From positions 1 to 64,000 of the forward strand of contig CAISPO010000038.1 in NCBI GenBank assembly GCA_903887415.1: a DNA stretch of 64,000 nucleotides, given 5' to 3'. Under the pieces are notes generated by a model. It ran no database searches. It worked only from the letters and a program-made list of their open reading frames with translations, and was not told where the DNA came from. Origin of the DNA: an uncultured Bacteroidota bacterium. GTDB lineage: Bacteria > Bacteroidota > Bacteroidia > Chitinophagales > Chitinophagaceae. Positions 5,072 to 14,320 of this stretch are shown here, in pieces. The position numbers were made by a program, and so were the translations under genes. Numbering within the stretch: the first letter of the stretch is position 1; each line of letters opens with the position of its first letter.

Positions 5072-8000
5072 TTATTCCTTCACAAACTTCCTTGTCTCCA
5101 CACCATTCACTTTTACGAAGTACAAACCACCAGCTAATTTTGATACATCAACCCGCACTTCATTAGCATTGTAAATGTTGCTGTAAACTTTTTGTCCAAA
5201 AAGATCCGTGATCGTTACCTGATTGATAATACTTGAGTAAGTAATAGTTAAGGATGAAGCTGCCGGGTTGGGAAATATGGTAAGAACGCCTGCTGTATTA
5301 TCAACAATATTTATCCCGGTTGAACATGGATCAACGGTTACCACTTCCGTGGCAACCGCAGTGCCGCAGCTATTGGTTAAGGAGTAGCTAATTGTAGATG
5401 TGCCTGCAGACAAGCCGCTGACCGTACCTGTAGTATTTACGGAGGCTACTGTAGTATTACTGCTGCTCCATGTTCCGCCCGCAGCGCCATCACTAAGGGC
5501 AGTTATTGAAGAAGTGCATACAGTATCTATGCCTGCGATGGTGCCCGCATCAGGTGCGGCATTCACAGTCACAATAGCTGTTGCCGCGGCTGTGCCGCAG
5601 CTATTGACAACGGTATAGGAGATCGTTGATGTACCAACGGCCACGCCGGTTACTACACCTGTGCTGCCTACTGTTGCAATACCTGTGCTTACACTGCTCC
5701 AGGCGCCACCACCAATGGCATCGGTTAAGTTTGTAGTTGCCGTTGGGCATACTAAGCCAACTCCGGTTATTGTTCCTGCCGATGGTGCTGCGCTAACAGT
5801 TACAATGGCTGTTGCTGCTGCTATGCCGCAACTATTACTTACGGTATAGGAGATTGTTGAAGTACCAACTGCCGCACCGGTTACTACACCTGTGCTGCCT
5901 ACTGTTGCAATACCTGTGCTTACACTGCTCCATGTGCCGCCGCCTGTAGCATCGGTTAAATTAGTAATGGCAGTAGGGCATACTAAATCCACTCCGGTTA
6001 TTGTTCCCGCAGATGGTGTTGCGCTAACAGTCATGATGGCTGTTGCTGCTGCCATACCGCAGCTATTACTCACGGTATAAGAAATTGTAGAAGTACCAAC
6101 AGTCACACCAGTCACAATACCTGTGCTGCCCACAGTAGCAATACCCGTGCTTACACTGCTCCATGTGCCGCCGCCTGTTGCATCAGTTAAGTTTGTTGTT
6201 GCGGTTGGGCATACTAAATCAACACCCGTTATTGTTCCAGCCGAAGGCGTAGTGCTCACAGTTACAATAGTTGTTGCTGCCGCGATACCGCAGCTATTGC
6301 TTACGGTATAAGAGATAATAGATGTACCAACGGCCACACCGGTTACTACTCCTGTGCTGCCTACTGTGGCAATACCTGTGCTTACACTGCTCCATGTGCC
6401 GCCGCCTGTAGCATCAGTTAAGTTTGTAGTTGCCGTTGGGCATACTAAGCCAACTCCGGTTATTGTTCCTGCCGAAGGCGTAGTGCTCACAGTTACAATA
6501 GTTGTTGCTGCCGCGATACCGCAGCTATTGCTTACGGTATAAGAGATAATAGATGTGCCAGCGGCTACACCTGTTACTACTCCTGTGCTGCCTACTGTTG
6601 CAATACCTGTGCTTACACTGCTCCAGGCGCCACCACCGGTAGCATCGGTTAAATTTGTAGTAGCGGTTGGGCATACTAAATCAACACCCGTTATTGTTCC
6701 AGCCGAAGGCGTAGTGCTCACAGTTACAATAGTTGTTGCTGCTGCCATACCGCAGCTATTACTCACGGTATAAGAAATGGTAGAAGTACCAACAGCCACA
6801 CCGGTCACAATACCTGTGCTGCCTACTGTCGCAATGCCTGTGCTTACACTGCTCCATGTGCCGCCGCCTGTAGCATCAGTTAAGTTTGTAGTAGTCGTGG
6901 TACATAGCGTACCGGTGCCAGTAATGCTGCCTGCTGCGGGAGCAACATTCACAGTTACAGTTCCTGTTACGGTAAATCCCGCAACAGTATAAGAGATAGT
7001 AGTTGTGCCAACAGTTGCACCGGTAATAGTGCCGGAAGAAGACCCTACTGTTGCCACGGCGGGATTGCTGCTTACCCATAAGCCGCCTGTTACCGGATCA
7101 CTGAGTGATGTTGTGGCCCCTACGCAGACACTGGTATTGTTAAGATTGACTACAACGGTATCTACCTTAGTAGTATATAGGGTACGGTCGATCAGTGTGA
7201 GCAGGAATATATAGCGGCCGGGCACTGTAAGATTTTGCGCTTCATTGATGCGCTCACCCTGCATAGAAAACGTTGGGTTCGCACCTGCGGGAGCTGATTT
7301 TACAGTCCACCAGTGTGTAATAATATCTCCATCCGGGTCGCTGGTAACGGCGGATAGCAGGCTGCTGTCAACAGGCAGCGACATTACGGCTGGTGTTGCC
7401 GAAACACTGGATATTACCGGGGTATCATTTACAGGGTACACAGGTATTGTTATGTTACGGATGCTAGGGCTGCCAACATGTGATGGATCTGTAACAGAAA
7501 GCTGAACCACGTAATTACCCGGCAGTGTCATGTTGTAAATATCCTGGACGTTTATAGAAATGTTTCTCAAAGCTGCAGTAGCCCCTATGGGTTGGCTAAT
7601 GATAGAATAACTATAAGTTAGCGCATCGCCTTCTATGTCAAACGCAAACCCATGTATTATTGACGTGTCAACAGGCAGGGTTACGATCGTTGGGTTCCTG
7701 CTTTGAAGTGCGGAAATAATTGGCGCCTGGTTGTTAGGGAATACCTCTACGGTAACACTCCTTTTGGTAGTATCGGTACTGCCATCTGCCATGTGTATCG
7801 TGAAAACATAGTTCCCCGCCACGGTCATACCGGTAGCAGTAGGTGCGGCAATGTTCGGATTAGAAAGCACAACCGCAGCCCCCGCAGGGAAACTGTCTAT
7901 TGTCCAGTGATAAGTGACTGTGCTTAGCTCAGGATCCAAACCGCTCGAAGTGAGCGCTACGCTGCTGGCTGGCAAATCCAGGTAGGTTGGCGTTGCTGCC

Positions 8001-9349
8001 CATGTTTCGGGAACGACGGGAAGATTTGCGGTGTGTGGATAGACCGTCATTATTGCCTGGTTTGCGAGCGGCAGGGTTAATGTACCAGAGCCGCCTACCG
8101 TATATACGCCAAACTCAGTATAAGGAGAGCCGCTGCCCAGCACCTGGCTTACCGCATAATTCCCCGCAGGCAGCCCGGCAATGGTAACAGTTGTAGCAAT
8201 GCTCGCCGCATTATTATTCAGTATCAGTGTGGTTATATTGCCTCCCTGGTTGAAAGCCAGGGACACTATGGCGGGTGTATCATTAGACACGGCGGCTATG
8301 CGCACAGCTCCAGGCCTTACATAGTGCATCAATTGCCGGAACGTCCAGTATTTAGCCCCGTGAGTGTACCAGGTGTTATTTGCATTTGGCACACAGTAAT
8401 CACCAATGGCATAGGCTTGCCAGTAAGATACGCCAGCCAGCGTAATATCGTTATAAACTTCACTTATCCCCTCGCCTTGCTCTTCTGTCTGGGCGCTGAT
8501 AATTCCTTTCAGGGTTGCGAGGCTATCTATATCATGGCGGTAAGGATCGTTTGTGCCGTATTTATGGAATGAAAGGCATTTAATATACGGCCATATACCG
8601 GGATCAAGCAGGCCGCTGTCAATGTATTGCCAGCTTTGCTGTGTGGATACACATTCGGGGTACTGGCACCAGGTATTGGTATATCCCGCAGCCTGTACCC
8701 TCGGCATTACGGTCTTGATCATATTGGCAACTAACAGTTCATAGAAAGCATTGCCATTGCCGGCCTCATTGCACATGGTTATATAATTCGGTATAAGGCC
8801 ATACTGGTTTTTAATGTGGTTCATGTAGCTGATATAGTATTCGGCATACTCTCCGGGGCTGTACCTGAGGAAAGCGGGAATATCACCGGTGCTGCCGCCA
8901 TAATACCAGGAAGGGCTCATGTAAAAAAGGAAGCTGTCACCATTACCAACAACTGCATTTCTCCACGGTACGATAAGATTGTTATAATAGTAGTCTATAG
9001 CGCCGCTGTCAAATGCGCTCTCTGTCACGGTATCCGGGCTGCCGTTATCATTGGTCCATTCCCAGGTGTGTTGCTGGCCATAGCTATGGGAATAATTACC
9101 CTGGTACATATCATCCCGCAAACCGGTGAACCCCACCCCGTTTACAGATTCATTGATATCCTGCGTGATCATGTAGGGCGGTGTTCCTTCAAACTGGGTG
9201 TTCTCACCTCCGGCGCCAACCCAGCCCTTTATGGTCTGGTATGTAACCGCACTGTTTACATGGACGGTATCTTGTGCCATTAGCCGCGTTGCTGATAACA
9301 GTGTAATAATTGCAAACAGAATTTTTTTCCTGGAGTATTTTACGATCAT
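5072..9349 (-). CDS. Secreted GH30-like glycoside hydrolase with PKD-like and tandem Ig-like (Big_2-type) repeats and T9SS type A C-terminal domain
   Basis: Signal peptide; YQTIKGWVGAGGENTQ...GFTGLRDDMY...ITMCNEAGNG catalytic-domain-like region; about seven Ig-like repeats; C-terminus LTIFPNPAASSLTITYSS...GLYFVKVNGVETRKFVKE. Confidence 0.75.
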   Translation of the reverse strand: MIVKYSRKKILFAIITLLSATRLMAQDTVHVNSAVTYQTIKGWVGAGGENTQFEGTPPYMITQDINESVNGVGFTGLRDDMYQGNYSHSYGQQHTWEWTNDNGSPDTVTESAFDSGAIDYYYNNLIVPWRNAVVGNGDSFLFYMSPSWYYGGSTGDIPAFLRYSPGEYAEYYISYMNHIKNQYGLIPNYITMCNEAGNGNAFYELLVANMIKTVMPRVQAAGYTNTWCQYPECVSTQQSWQYIDSGLLDPGIWPYIKCLSFHKYGTNDPYRHDIDSLATLKGIISAQTEEQGEGISEVYNDITLAGVSYWQAYAIGDYCVPNANNTWYTHGAKYWTFRQLMHYVRPGAVRIAAVSNDTPAIVSLAFNQGGNITTLILNNNAASIATTVTIAGLPAGNYAVSQVLGSGSPYTEFGVYTVGGSGTLTLPLANQAIMTVYPHTANLPVVPETWAATPTYLDLPASSVALTSSGLDPELSTVTYHWTIDSFPAGAAVVLSNPNIAAPTATGMTVAGNYVFTIHMADGSTDTTKRSVTVEVFPNNQAPIISALQSRNPTIVTLPVDTSIIHGFAFDIEGDALTYSYSIISQPIGATAALRNISINVQDIYNMTLPGNYVVQLSVTDPSHVGSPSIRNITIPVYPVNDTPVISSVSATPAVMSLPVDSSLLSAVTSDPDGDIITHWWTVKSAPAGANPTFSMQGERINEAQNLTVPGRYIFLLTLIDRTLYTTKVDTVVVNLNNTSVCVGATTSLSDPVTGGLWVSSNPAVATVGSSSGTITGATVGTTTISYTVAGFTVTGTVTVNVAPAAGSITGTGTLCTTTTTNLTDATGGGTWSSVSTGIATVGSTGIVTGVAVGTSTISYTVSNSCGMAAATTIVTVSTTPSAGTITGVDLVCPTATTNLTDATGGGAWSSVSTGIATVGSTGVVTGVAAGTSIISYTVSNSCGIAAATTIVTVSTTPSAGTITGVGLVCPTATTNLTDATGGGTWSSVSTGIATVGSTGVVTGVAVGTSIISYTVSNSCGIAAATTIVTVSTTPSAGTITGVDLVCPTATTNLTDATGGGTWSSVSTGIATVGSTGIVTGVTVGTSTISYTVSNSCGMAAATAIMTVSATPSAGTITGVDLVCPTAITNLTDATGGGTWSSVSTGIATVGSTGVVTGAAVGTSTISYTVSNSCGIAAATAIVTVSAAPSAGTITGVGLVCPTATTNLTDAIGGGAWSSVSTGIATVGSTGVVTGVAVGTSTISYTVVNSCGTAAATAIVTVNAAPDAGTIAGIDTVCTSSITALSDGAAGGTWSSSNTTVASVNTTGTVSGLSAGTSTISYSLTNSCGTAVATEVVTVDPCSTGINIVDNTAGVLTIFPNPAASSLTITYSSIINQVTITDLFGQKVYSNIYNANEVRVDVSKLAGGLYFVKVNGVETRKFVKE
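5340..7080 (-). repeat. In-frame tandem array of 77-aa (231-bp) Ig-like modules
   Basis: Units of the form PSAGTITGVDLVCPTATTNLTDATGGGTWSSVSTGIATVGSTGVVTGVAVGTSTISYTVSNSCGIAAATTIVTVST; antisense artefact ORFs recur exactly every 231 bp (5661, 5892, 6123, 6354). Confidence 0.9.
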
Positions 9350-9395: not shown

Positions 9396-12300
9396 TTAAT
9401 GTACCACTATAAACCTCCTGGTTTCTGAAACCGCGCCCGACTGGAATTTTAAAAAGTAAGACCCGTTATTAAAGCCATCTACAGAAAAGACAGACTGGTG
9501 ACTGCCTTGCGGTTCGTTTGAGCTGCTCTGTGTCATCAGCCTGCCCAAAACATCATATACGGTAAGTGTAACAGTACCGGCCTCGGGAATGGTGTAAGCT
9601 ACGGTATAATTTTGCTGCACCACGGTCGGGTACAGGGAAATAATATCTGCTTTCCCCGGAGCAGGTACTGAGGTGGTGAGGACAGTTGGCACACCAATGA
9701 AATGCGCCGCTGCATTTCTTTGTGCGCTCCATGTACTTACCCTGAACAGCTTCACGTCTGTAACCCCCGCTGCCATGTCCATTGGCGGGTCTGCGCGCAC
9801 TGCGCGCAATTGTGCAAGATCATTAAGCAGAGATGTTGTATCTACCAATATATTATGTACTTTATTGGCTACATCATCCAGGTAATGGAGGTTTGTAGTT
9901 GCAGAGTTTCTGTAAAAACCGGCATTAGCATCAGGTGACGTGAGGTCTTCCCAAACTGAATCAGCGGTTCCGCCTACAGCGTTTGATTGCCCCCAGTCAT
10001 TATAAATACCCAAAGTGCTGAGGCCAGCACCGGAGCCTTCCATTAAACATGTGGTGCGGTCCACCTGGTTAAAATGGTTCAGCATGAGTGTGAGATTTCC
10101 TGTGAAATTATTGGTATGAACGATAGATTCATGGCAGGCAGTATCGAGATACCAGGCCATACAGGCGACCGATAATTTTCCTGAGCAGTTTTCAAGGTCA
10201 ATTAACCCATCTGTGAGGCCCGGACTATAACCTTCATACCACATACCTTCTGCAGTGATACGGCCGCCATTGACAACGCTGAATAAATTCTGCCCGCCGC
10301 CGCCTGCACCGCCCAGGCAGGAGAACTGGCCGTTAGTATTCCCGCCGGAAGAAAGCACTGTTCCTCCTTTGGCTTTTATTGCGCCGTTCAGGCACTCGCC
10401 CGGGCCGCCGCAAATAAGCGTTATGTCACTGTTCTCCACACCATCGGCATATATGCCTACATCGCCAAAGTGGTCCACATCATGCCCGCCTGCATGAAAC
10501 TGGTTGCCGAAAATGCGCCCGCCCACCTGGTCTGCATTTTGGATGACTAGCGGTTCTACGCCTGAATTATATGTCGATATTAGCAGCATATCTTTCATCG
10601 TTATGCGGCTCGGTCCCGCGCAATTCATAATAGGGCCTGTGGTGTCGCCAGTCCACGTCAGCCGTGTAATAGTTCCCGAGCCTACACCATCACCTATAAG
10701 CTGCATATCACTGTTTGCAGGTACATTTATGGTACGGGCGATATTGAACAAGCCATTAGGAATATGCACAACAGGCTTGTTACCCAGCGGCAGCATCGCG
10801 GCTGAATCTATTTTTGTTTGTATCGCTAATGCATCGTCTCCTGTACCGGTGGGCACTTCAAAAATAGTGCGGTGCATATTTGGGGGGGTGCCGGGCAAGG
10901 AAACGGTTGTGGGCGCCGGTATTGCCGAGGAATCTACAACACTATTGTCCAGGGAAATATAGGTGCCCCAGGGTTCATCAGCGCCGCATAATAATCCCGT
11001 GGGGTCTTGAGTCAGGTCATTGCTCACTGAATCATATAAATGGAATTCGATCACCTCTATCCAGCCGGATGCATTATCAACGGTTGGCCGGAATTCATAG
11101 ATACCGTAAGGAGTGGTATTAGTGATGGTGTAGGTATGCAGGCCACCGCCGCCTGTAAATGTTTGCGCCACTTCGGTATCCAGCGTGGTCCATGTATATC
11201 CCCAATCGTTTGATGCCCGTAAAATGAAAGTACCAGGCGATTTGCCCCCGCTGTTGGGCGGTGCTGATAAGGTGTATTTTTTCACTGTTCTTCTGGTTCC
11301 CAGCGGGCAGTTCCACTGAATACCGCCGAGCCCGTCGGCAACTTGCGATGCAAAACTCGTGGTGGGATCATTGTCTATACTTTTTTCTATTTGCTTGCCC
11401 ACATTGTAGGATCCACCAAGGCCATGGTCAAACTGCTGGAATCCCGGCTGTATGGGAAAGTAAGGCCAGATATGCTGCGTCTTACAGAAAGTATTTCCTA
11501 TTACCGTATTGGAGCCGTTCCTTACACGGGCAGAGGGCCAGGCATTGCTTGGTGTGCTGATTATGTTGTCCACCAGCACCGAGCCTATGCTTGTATGCAC
11601 AGAATCATCGACATTGCTGTATATCTTATTGCCTTGCAGATAGCCATCCTCTGTTTGAAGAAAACAGGTGGAGTTAATGGACGTATTATTGACCATGACA
11701 TTCTTATATGGGGAGCCGCTGATATCGTACCAGACTGATCTTAGGAAAACATTTCCATATGCCTGGCAATACCCCGTGCATTGGTCCAGCGCTGCATGGC
11801 AGTCAGCAAAAAGGCAATTCCATACCCATTGGTCCAGGCTGTTCCAGTTGCAACTGCTTATGCCATACTTCACCCCGGTGAACCGGCAGCGGAGAATTGC
11901 ATTTTCCGCTTGGCCATTTACCGGCGCACCAAAGTCTATTCCAACGCTGTAAACGGGATTAAAATTTGTGAACCAAAGATCACTCCATTCGCAACCAGTA
12001 GAAAATCCGCCGGTATGGAAAATACCCCAGCCTGCTGTGCCATTCCCGTCAAAGGTTAAACGGCTGACCCGCATGTACCAGCCATTGATATACATCATTT
12101 TCCCAAACGCCGGGCCGTTCCATTTAATGATAGTAGTTGCCGGGTCTTCACCAATGATCTGCACGCCAGAATAGTCTTCACCGCTTACCCGGTCTATATT
12201 GAATAAGGTATCGTCTATGAGGTAGGTGCCCGCCGGGAAGTACAGCACATTATAATTGTTTGTCCCCGTATTTTTCATAGCCAGCAAGGCCGCATTTATT

Positions 12301-12497
12301 GCCGCAGCATCATCGGTCACACCATCGCCCATCGCCCCGAAGTCGGTCTTTACATTTTTCCAGCTGGAAAAAGGCCCTGAGAATTCCTCTCCGGTAGCAT
12401 AATAAGTCACTGTTTGTGCAAAAGAAGAATTTTTATTACAAACTAAACAGAACATAAAAGCAAATAGCAGGTAGAAGCGATGTATAGTTATACGCAT
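9396..12497 (-). CDS. Secreted pectate lyase-like/GH55-like beta-helix protein with T9SS type A C-terminal domain
   Basis: WKNVKTDFGAMGDGVTDDAAAINAAL...VLYFPAGTYLIDDTLF is a Pectate_lyase_3-type motif; C-terminus IISLYPTVVQQNYTVAYTIPEAGTVTLTVYDVLGR...GSYFLKFQSGAVSETRRFIVVH. Confidence 0.8.
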   Translation of the reverse strand: MRITIHRFYLLFAFMFCLVCNKNSSFAQTVTYYATGEEFSGPFSSWKNVKTDFGAMGDGVTDDAAAINAALLAMKNTGTNNYNVLYFPAGTYLIDDTLFNIDRVSGEDYSGVQIIGEDPATTIIKWNGPAFGKMMYINGWYMRVSRLTFDGNGTAGWGIFHTGGFSTGCEWSDLWFTNFNPVYSVGIDFGAPVNGQAENAILRCRFTGVKYGISSCNWNSLDQWVWNCLFADCHAALDQCTGYCQAYGNVFLRSVWYDISGSPYKNVMVNNTSINSTCFLQTEDGYLQGNKIYSNVDDSVHTSIGSVLVDNIISTPSNAWPSARVRNGSNTVIGNTFCKTQHIWPYFPIQPGFQQFDHGLGGSYNVGKQIEKSIDNDPTTSFASQVADGLGGIQWNCPLGTRRTVKKYTLSAPPNSGGKSPGTFILRASNDWGYTWTTLDTEVAQTFTGGGGLHTYTITNTTPYGIYEFRPTVDNASGWIEVIEFHLYDSVSNDLTQDPTGLLCGADEPWGTYISLDNSVVDSSAIPAPTTVSLPGTPPNMHRTIFEVPTGTGDDALAIQTKIDSAAMLPLGNKPVVHIPNGLFNIARTINVPANSDMQLIGDGVGSGTITRLTWTGDTTGPIMNCAGPSRITMKDMLLISTYNSGVEPLVIQNADQVGGRIFGNQFHAGGHDVDHFGDVGIYADGVENSDITLICGGPGECLNGAIKAKGGTVLSSGGNTNGQFSCLGGAGGGGQNLFSVVNGGRITAEGMWYEGYSPGLTDGLIDLENCSGKLSVACMAWYLDTACHESIVHTNNFTGNLTLMLNHFNQVDRTTCLMEGSGAGLSTLGIYNDWGQSNAVGGTADSVWEDLTSPDANAGFYRNSATTNLHYLDDVANKVHNILVDTTSLLNDLAQLRAVRADPPMDMAAGVTDVKLFRVSTWSAQRNAAAHFIGVPTVLTTSVPAPGKADIISLYPTVVQQNYTVAYTIPEAGTVTLTVYDVLGRLMTQSSSNEPQGSHQSVFSVDGFNNGSYFLKFQSGAVSETRRFIVVH

Positions 12498-12665: not shown

Positions 12666-12674
12666 TTATCCACA
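12666..12674 (+). promoter_or_regulatory. DnaA-box-like 9-mer TTATCCACA (exact consensus)
   Basis: Read directly from the intergenic region upstream of mraZ. Confidence 0.55.
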
Positions 12675-12741: not shown

Positions 12742-12750
12742 TTATCCACG
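12742..12750 (+). promoter_or_regulatory. DnaA-box-like 9-mer TTATCCACG (one mismatch)
   Basis: Read directly from sequence. Confidence 0.4.
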
Positions 12751-12762
12751 CCAACTAACAGG

Positions 12763-12771
12763 TTATCAACA
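12763..12771 (+). promoter_or_regulatory. DnaA-box-like 9-mer TTATCAACA (one mismatch)
   Basis: Read directly from sequence; followed by a T-rich stretch. Confidence 0.4.
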
Positions 12772-12845
12772 CTCTTTTTTTGGATTTACGGTATAAATAC
12801 ACCTAAAATACAATACAGGCAAGGCTTTCAGCTCATATATCAGGA

Positions 12846-12854
12846 TGTGGATAA
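12846..12854 (-). promoter_or_regulatory. DnaA-box-like 9-mer TTATCCACA on minus strand (TGTGGATAA on plus)
   Basis: Exact reverse complement of the consensus. Confidence 0.55.
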
Positions 12855-12873
12855 ATATGTTATGTTATTTTGA

Positions 12874-12908
12874 TGGAAAGAAGTGGGAAAAAGTGTTATT
12901 TTGTGGAG
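12874..12908 (+). promoter_or_regulatory. Candidate MraZ-box array upstream of mraZ
   Basis: TGGAA-N5-TGGGA-N5-TGTTA-N5-TGGAG at 12874, 12884, 12894 and 12904: exact 10-bp phasing, 32 nt before the mraZ ATG. Confidence 0.6.
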
Positions 12909-12939
12909 ATAATTGTTTTTATCGTTTCTTAACACACAC

Positions 12940-13407
12940 ATGACCAACTTTCTCGGTGAATATGAAGTAGCAATAGACGCCAAAGGGCGCTTCTTATTGC
13001 CATCGGGATTCCGGAAGCAGCTTGCTGAAGGGATGGGGGAAAAGTTTGTCATAAACCGTGGTTTTGAAAACTGTCTTTCGATATACACAATGGATGTATG
13101 GAGTGCGATCAGTGAAAAGATAAATCGCCTCAATGATTTCAAACCTGCCGTAAGGGAATTCAAAAGATTATTTCTGAACGGAGCAACAATAGTGGAAGCA
13201 GACAGTGCAGACCGCATACTGCTGCCTAAACCCTTGCAAGACCATGCAGGAATTAAGAAAGATGCTGTGTTGAGTGCGCAGGGCAATAAAATAGAATTGT
13301 GGGATAAAGATACTTATTATAATTATCTCCGTGAGCGTGTTGGCGGTTTCAGCAAGCTGGCGGAAGAGGTGGCAAATGATTTCGGGAACCCTTTTGAAAA
13401 TCTATAA
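12940..13407 (+). CDS. mraZ: Transcriptional regulator/division protein MraZ
   Basis: MTNFLGEYEVAIDAKGRFLLPSGFRKQL is diagnostic of MraZ; first gene of the dcw cluster. ATG at 12940 preferred over the upstream TTG of the ORF call. Confidence 0.95.
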   Translation: MTNFLGEYEVAIDAKGRFLLPSGFRKQLAEGMGEKFVINRGFENCLSIYTMDVWSAISEKINRLNDFKPAVREFKRLFLNGATIVEADSADRILLPKPLQDHAGIKKDAVLSAQGNKIELWDKDTYYNYLRERVGGFSKLAEEVANDFGNPFENL

Positions 13408-13408
13408 A

Positions 13409-14320
13409 ATGGGCACACCCGGTTTTTACCACACAACAGTTCTTTTACAGGAAGCCGTAGATGGGTTGGCAATAAAGGAAAACGGGGTATATGTGGATGC
13501 CACATTTGGCGGCGGCGGACACAGCAGGCTGATACTGGAAAAGCTGGGGCCGCAGGGAAAGCTGATAGCGTTTGACCAGGACGCAGATGCGTGGAAGAAC
13601 AAACCGGACGATGAAAGGCTGATACCGGTGACTGAGAACTTTAAATATCTGAAACGGTTTTTAAGGTTACACGGGCAGAGTGAGGTGGACGGGATACTGG
13701 CAGATCTCGGCGTAAGTTCTTTCCAGTTTGATACGGCAGAGCGCGGATTTTCGATACGCTTCGACGGGCCGCTGGATATGAGGATGGACAAACGGTCAGA
13801 GCTGACAGCAGCAGAGGTACTGAAGACCTATAGCGAACAACAGTTGCATACGCTCTTTGAACAATACGGTGAAGTGCGCAATTCGAAAGAACTTGCTAAG
13901 CACATAGTGGCCCAGCGTAAAGGACGTACGGTGCAAAGTATAGCTGCTCTGAAAGCGACTTTGGAGCCAGTGATGCGAGGCAACCCAAACAAATACCTGG
14001 CACAGGTGTTCCAGGCGCTGCGGATAGAAGTGAATGATGAGCTGGGTGCACTGAAGGAGTTTTTGCAACAGGCTGCTGTAAGCCTGAAGCCAGGCGGAAG
14101 ATTAAGCGTGATATCGTTTCACTCACTGGAAGACCGGATAGTGAAACACTATATAAAAAGAGGGCGATGGGATGAAGCAGGTGAATATGAAGAAGCAATA
14201 GTACCGCTACTAAAACCAGTGAATGCGAAACCGATAGAGCCGGGAGATGCAGAAATAAAGAACAACCCGCGCTCGCGCAGCGCCCGGTTGAGAATAGGTG
14301 AAAAAGTGCCAAGTTCATAA
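13409..14320 (+). CDS. rsmH: 16S rRNA (cytosine(1402)-N(4))-methyltransferase
   Basis: MGTPGFYHTTVLLQEAVDGLAIKENGVYVDATFGGGGHSRLIL...ADLGVSSFQFDTAERGFSIRFDGPLDMRMD...NPRSRSARLRIGEK. Confidence 0.97.
   Translation: MGTPGFYHTTVLLQEAVDGLAIKENGVYVDATFGGGGHSRLILEKLGPQGKLIAFDQDADAWKNKPDDERLIPVTENFKYLKRFLRLHGQSEVDGILADLGVSSFQFDTAERGFSIRFDGPLDMRMDKRSELTAAEVLKTYSEQQLHTLFEQYGEVRNSKELAKHIVAQRKGRTVQSIAALKATLEPVMRGNPNKYLAQVFQALRIEVNDELGALKEFLQQAAVSLKPGGRLSVISFHSLEDRIVKHYIKRGRWDEAGEYEEAIVPLLKPVNAKPIEPGDAEIKNNPRSRSARLRIGEKVPSS

Follow-up and report, generated by a model that had tools for sequence, protein, structure and literature searches.

Putative composite DnaA/MraZ control region upstream of the dcw operon in Chitinophagaceae

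The MraZ site of Mollicutes has the form (AAAGTGKN3)3, and the Burkholderia sites consist of four 7-nt repeats with 3-nt spacers, located at the transcription start. DnaA has been found at division genes, being bound at ftsL of B. subtilis in vivo and at ftsZ of C. crescentus in vitro (PMC8203912). The DnaA boxes upstream of ftsZ in E. coli have no effect. In the same species, MraZ binds a site that overlaps the DnaA box of mioC (PMC4446571). How replication initiation and division are coupled in bacteria is a long-standing question. Here we describe the region upstream of mraZ in an uncultured Chitinophagaceae bacterium, in which an array of MraZ boxes is accompanied by sites matching DnaA boxes. 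The window refers to the whole stretch analysed, i.e. 64,000 nucleotides of contig CAISPO010000038.1; its placement in the family is based on close relatives with names and on how the genome collection groups its families.

Probable MraZ boxes and predicted core promoter

In the window, mraZ is the first gene of the dcw cluster and is followed by rsmH, ftsL, ftsI, murE, mraY, and murD, as named from their translations. The MraZ protein scores above the Pfam cut-off for PF02381 (E = 9e-32) and aligns to the solved MraZ 1n0e (E = 2e-19). Two very long open reading frames on the minus strand, 5072-9349 and 9396-12497, diverge from mraZ. Their products of 1425 and 1033 aa both resemble secreted surface proteins that end in a tail of the C-terminal sorting type, and the first one contains tandem repeats. 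The features of the operon start are as follows.

12869 to 12872, plus strand: possible -33 element TTTG (sequence; a weakly conserved TTTG in the family, some 21 nt 5' of the -7 element)
12873 to 12879, plus strand: MraZ box 1 (ATGGAAA), lineage-specific (sequence and count among relatives)
12883 to 12889, plus strand: MraZ box 2 (GTGGGAA), invariant core (sequence and alignment of 100 upstream regions)
12893 to 12899, plus strand: MraZ box 3 (GTGTTAT), invariant core (same basis)
12896 to 12903, plus strand: predicted -7 promoter element TTATTTTG (alignment and published consensus)
12903 to 12909, plus strand: MraZ box 4 (GTGGAGA), invariant core (same basis as boxes 2 and 3)
12940 to 13407, plus strand: mraZ, 155 aa, two MraZ domains (open reading frame and domain search)
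13409 to 14320, plus strand: rsmH (mraW), which follows mraZ in the dcw cluster (named from translation)

Direct repeats with a GTG/TGG core and a 10-bp period lie upstream of mraZ. The boxes ATGGAA, GTGGGA, GTGTTA, and GTGGAG span 12873-12908, and the array ends 31 bp 5' of the mraZ ATG (12940). The sequence bears out the original prediction in placing TGGAA at 12874, TGGGA at 12884, TGTTA at 12894, and TGGAG at 12904 with an exact 10-bp spacing, and in reading AAGTGGG-AAA-AAGTGTT at 12881-12897. Its likening of the array to known MraZ targets also holds, as the GTG core and the period are the same as in the Mollicutes and Burkholderia sites. The direct repeat TGTTATTTTG, which had been noted as overlapping the array, is present at 12863 and 12894, but it is better explained by a merger of promoter -33/-7 sequence and operator than by membership in the MraZ site.

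An exact three-box match occurs in the window only at the mraZ array. The degenerate three-box pattern with up to two mismatches gave 4 matches in the 64-kb window against 3.5 expected, and the four-box pattern gave 2 matches in the whole 4.7-Mb genome against 12 for a reversed control pattern. Because the degenerate patterns are no commoner than the controls, the motif alone does not reject a chance origin, and conservation is needed. We collected the regions upstream of mraZ from 43 named loci and from genomes of the family, and anchored them on AGTGGGAAAAAGTGTTATTTTGTG, which left 100 non-redundant sequences. These are mostly from Chitinophagaceae and cover more than 50 genera (counted by genome handles), with a few from outside the family. 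One locus, L063, is titled Azovibrio restrictus, a proteobacterium, and has a mraZ region of the Chitinophagaceae type; it probably belongs to a misbinned contig. The GTG at offsets 1-3, 11-13, and 21-23 is 96-100% conserved per base among these relatives, which are phylogenetically non-independent. It is this conservation of the GTG cores, and not the rarity of the pattern, that places the array beyond chance.

The invariant core consists of three boxes, which start at 12883, 12893, and 12903 in the window. A box at the place of box 1 (12873) is found in 32 of the 100 relatives, a box at the downstream end instead in 29, and both in only 3; box 1 of the window is the upstream kind of this variable flanking box. 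Hence, the predicted array of four boxes is complete in the window, but as a conserved unit it reduces to three boxes with a lineage-specific box 1. Footprinting upstream of mraZ in Chitinophagaceae, proposed earlier as a check, finds the 10-bp-phased GTG boxes conserved in the family. Upstream of orthologous mraZ genes, recognisable arrays are also present elsewhere in the class and over a large part of the phylum. In the class outside the family, the array is typically composed of three copies of GTGGTAAAAA, and many members of the outer phylum have two to three copies of GTGGG(G)AAAA, often behind a TTGAC promoter.

The array is closely associated with the predicted promoter. The element TTATTTTG (offsets 14-21) is 84-100% conserved per base in the 100 upstream regions. 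It fits the Bacteroidota -7 consensus TAnnTTTG (PMC7366714) except that its second base is T, and some relatives have a perfect TAGATTTG at its place. As TTATTTTG is conserved and fits the consensus, MraZ boxes 3 and 4 appear to be fused to the promoter: judged by sequence, the element lies within these two boxes, and the transcription start is predicted near 12908. The GTG boxes, with their 10-bp phasing, all face the same side of the helix over the core promoter and this predicted start. Bound MraZ would obstruct RNA polymerase here and so repress the operon that contains its own gene (steric autorepression). The conserved mraZ autoregulation of the original prediction stands with respect to the array, which is conserved upstream of mraZ in the 100 regions; MraZ binding and autorepression at this array are what we infer from it. 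The array at 12873-12908 is very probably the MraZ autorepression operator, and would extend the known MraZ operator to Bacteroidota in a form fitted to their unusual promoters.

DnaA-box matches upstream of the array

A second conserved module, overlooked in the original prediction, is located upstream of the MraZ array and is made up of sites matching DnaA boxes.

12666 to 12674, plus strand: outlying DnaA box TTATCCACA, offset -216 (exact consensus; common to few close relatives only)
12742 to 12750, plus strand: distal DnaA box TTATCCACG, one mismatch, offset -140 (slot filled in many relatives)
12763 to 12771, plus strand: distal DnaA box TTATCAACA, offset -119 (slot filled in many relatives)
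12846 to 12854, minus strand: proximal DnaA box (TGTGGATAA on the plus strand), 36 bp before GTGGG (fixed spacing in 84 of 100 relatives)

In the 100 upstream regions, TGTGGAWAAA at offsets -36 to -27 is 83-93% conserved per base, with the exception of one position, at which A and T are about equally frequent. Read on the other strand, the element is TTWTCCACA, a DnaA box with respect to the consensus TTWTNCACA (PMC5835720). The exact consensus is found near -36 in 82 of the 100 regions versus 0.2% in shuffles, and a box at exactly -36 with one mismatch allowed in 84 versus 2.5%. The rare other exact variants at -36, namely TGTGTATAA, TGTGAATAA, and TGTGCATAA, differ at the N position only. 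Seven of the 100 relatives have no recognisable box near -36. The geometry is fixed across species within the family and differs outside it. About 20 relatives also have an imperfect dyad, CTGAAAnnCTTTACTGTAAAGnnTTTCAG, centred at -64 from GTGGG (12804-12832 in the window, where it is decayed). Its arms co-vary when some of the lineages are compared, L053 and L115 for instance having CCAATAC/GTATTGG; the fixed-centre pairing test on the 100 sequences was weak, with a paired fraction of 0.35 versus a mean of 0.27 and higher values at several other centres.

DnaA boxes are concentrated a second time between -160 and -80, at up to 16.5 per kb versus 0.063 per kb in neighbouring coding DNA. Nearly all of these distal boxes are arranged head-to-tail and oriented opposite to the proximal box. 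They occupy slots near -117, -128, -139, and -149 with a best period of 11.0 bp (R = 0.61), while the largest R in 2000 jitters was 0.34. At E. coli oriC, a gap of 2 bp between 9-mers allows DnaA to bind co-operatively (PMC6727663). Distal boxes differ in number between relatives; some have three in succession, as in GGTTATCCACAGTTATGCACAGGATATGCACA, and 30 of the 100 are without a further exact box. In the genome of the window, no two exact copies of TTATCCACA other than those at 12666 and 12846 lie within 2 kb of each other.

It could be argued that the region is an MraZ operator only. TGTGGAWAA would then be one more MraZ site outside the phase, or would be contacted by another factor or by the polymerase, and the distal boxes would be incidental. 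MraZ and DnaA sites have the GTGG core in common, so the -36 element could partly serve MraZ; E. coli MraZ does bind at the mioC DnaA box (PMC4446571), and the array is recognisable as an MraZ operator without the -36 element. In the element itself, however, GTGG is preceded by T and followed by A; at the later position, the three core MraZ boxes mostly have G or T. Rare variants of the element change the N position only and thus keep the DnaA consensus. The element is also 36 bp off and outside the 10-bp phase, and the distal boxes are TTATNCACA in opposite orientation with an 11-bp phase of their own. We consider this explanation unlikely.

Several controls bear on the identity of the boxes as DnaA sites. 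Position 5 is C in 58 of 70 TTTT-type boxes versus 80 of 125 TTAT-type boxes (p = 0.005), and as a dependence between positions 3 and 5 has been reported for E. coli DnaA, this favours DnaA as the binder. TTWTNCACA boxes exceed both chance and control regions: there are 199 exact boxes in the 100 mraZ upstream regions versus 4 in 18 dnaA upstream regions of the same family, an excess which also favours DnaA. Co-oriented TTATNCACA pairs 10-22 bp apart occur at only 13 places in 18 genomes, five of them before mraZ (in four genomes) and one at the origin of the complete genome G019. Their rarity and their location at mraZ point in the same direction. The DnaA encoded by the genome of the window has an intact DNA-binding domain.

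Outside the family, 13 of 19 relatives from the class match TTWTNMACA no more than 60 bp 5' of the MraZ array, where shuffles predict 0.6; the box is frequently TTATTAACA, placed at exactly -11 or -21. Flavobacteriaceae-like genomes mostly have TTATTAACA as their box, but in the opposite strand and with a different spacing, and the geometry is not universal. In the outer phylum, such a box near the array was found in 1 of 46 members versus 1.3 expected. As orientation and distance differ and TTATTAACA is a non-consensus box, the claim for the class is weaker than that for the family. We found no report of DnaA boxes at mraZ in Bacteroidota in a literature search that was thin on subscription journals.

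Proposed joint control by DnaA and MraZ

Judged from its sequence, the region probably serves the dcw operon as a composite promoter with DnaA and MraZ sites. The DnaA module would comprise a head-to-tail array in steps of about 11 bp that faces the single inverted proximal box, which lies at a fixed distance of about 58 bp on the 5' side of the predicted start. Through DnaA bound to this module, dcw transcription would be tuned to the replication status. Upstream activators usually bind approximately where the DnaA module would sit. The upstream position leans towards activation by DnaA, and repression by looping or competition is possible. The DnaA complex would be directly upstream of the MraZ operator covering the promoter, and may compete or co-operate with MraZ. 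Cross-talk between the two proteins is plausible because GTGG is common to both sites and because the sites overlap at mioC in E. coli.

The clustered, phased, and oriented boxes might instead form a DnaA-titrating or -resetting locus like datA or DARS, placed beside mraZ by happenstance and without action on the promoter. The distances are comparable, E. coli datA being about 460 kb from oriC (PMC6727663) and the mraZ cluster of G019 being 388 kb from the origin. In 84 of 100 relatives, however, the proximal box stands at one exact distance from the mraZ promoter, an arrangement that titration does not call for, and the boxes are few for such a locus, which makes this reading rather improbable.

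A present or former replication origin beside the dcw cluster can be dismissed as very improbable: a DnaA-box cluster in an AT-rich intergenic region that includes the only exact TTATCCACA pair within 2 kb in its genome would suit one, but in G019 the GC skew changes sign at about 2.375-2.40 Mb, at an 8-box DnaA cluster (several boxes within about 250 bp) 388 kb from mraZ, whereas mraZ and its own cluster at 2.763 Mb lie in a uniformly positive stretch, and nadA, the gene adjoining this origin, has four boxes in front of it on another contig (C46) of the window's genome. The contig of the window shows no consistent GC-skew switch at mraZ, and its skew is uninformative alone. The segment upstream of nadA on C46 (L243, 2552-2906) is a candidate oriC with two copies of TTATTCACA, one TTATTAACA, and one TTATCCACA within 355 bp. 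On contig C1 of G019, the orientation of TTATCCACA flips near the origin, from mostly plus on the left of 2.3757 Mb to mostly minus on the right, which indicates that TGTGGATAA favours the leading strand.

Returning to the composite promoter, a DnaA-box module whose spacing to the first dcw gene is kept through more than 50 genera of the family, and which recurs in modified form more widely in the class, is a direct candidate for the coupling of replication initiation to division. If so, these bacteria would tie the expression of division genes to DNA replication. The broader proposal, that in Bacteroidia the dcw operon is jointly controlled by DnaA and MraZ, with mraZ transcription as a direct read-out of replication initiation, we regard as evenly balanced between being right and wrong.

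Comparison with described systems

The operators described for MraZ in Mollicutes, E. coli, and Burkholderia resemble the present array in being direct GTG-core repeats with a 10-bp period, and in their location at the promoter or transcription start upstream of mraZ as the first dcw gene. Different from them, the boxes described here merge with a predicted -7 element of the Bacteroidota type (TTATTTTG), and not with the -10 element of sigma-70 promoters, and consist of three invariant boxes and one variable flanking box. DnaA boxes upstream of division genes are also found at B. subtilis ftsL and C. crescentus ftsZ, and MraZ and DnaA sites overlap at E. coli mioC (PMC4446571). Unlike at ftsL, ftsZ, and mioC, a fixed-spacing box and a phased array are located before mraZ itself, conserved in the family and altered across the class. 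In the ordered low-affinity arrays of E. coli oriC (PMC6727663), as in the distal array, one step from box to box is about 11 bp, made up of a 9-mer and 2 bp. Compared with them, the boxes upstream of mraZ are fewer, nearer to the consensus, beside a promoter, and away from the skew switch.
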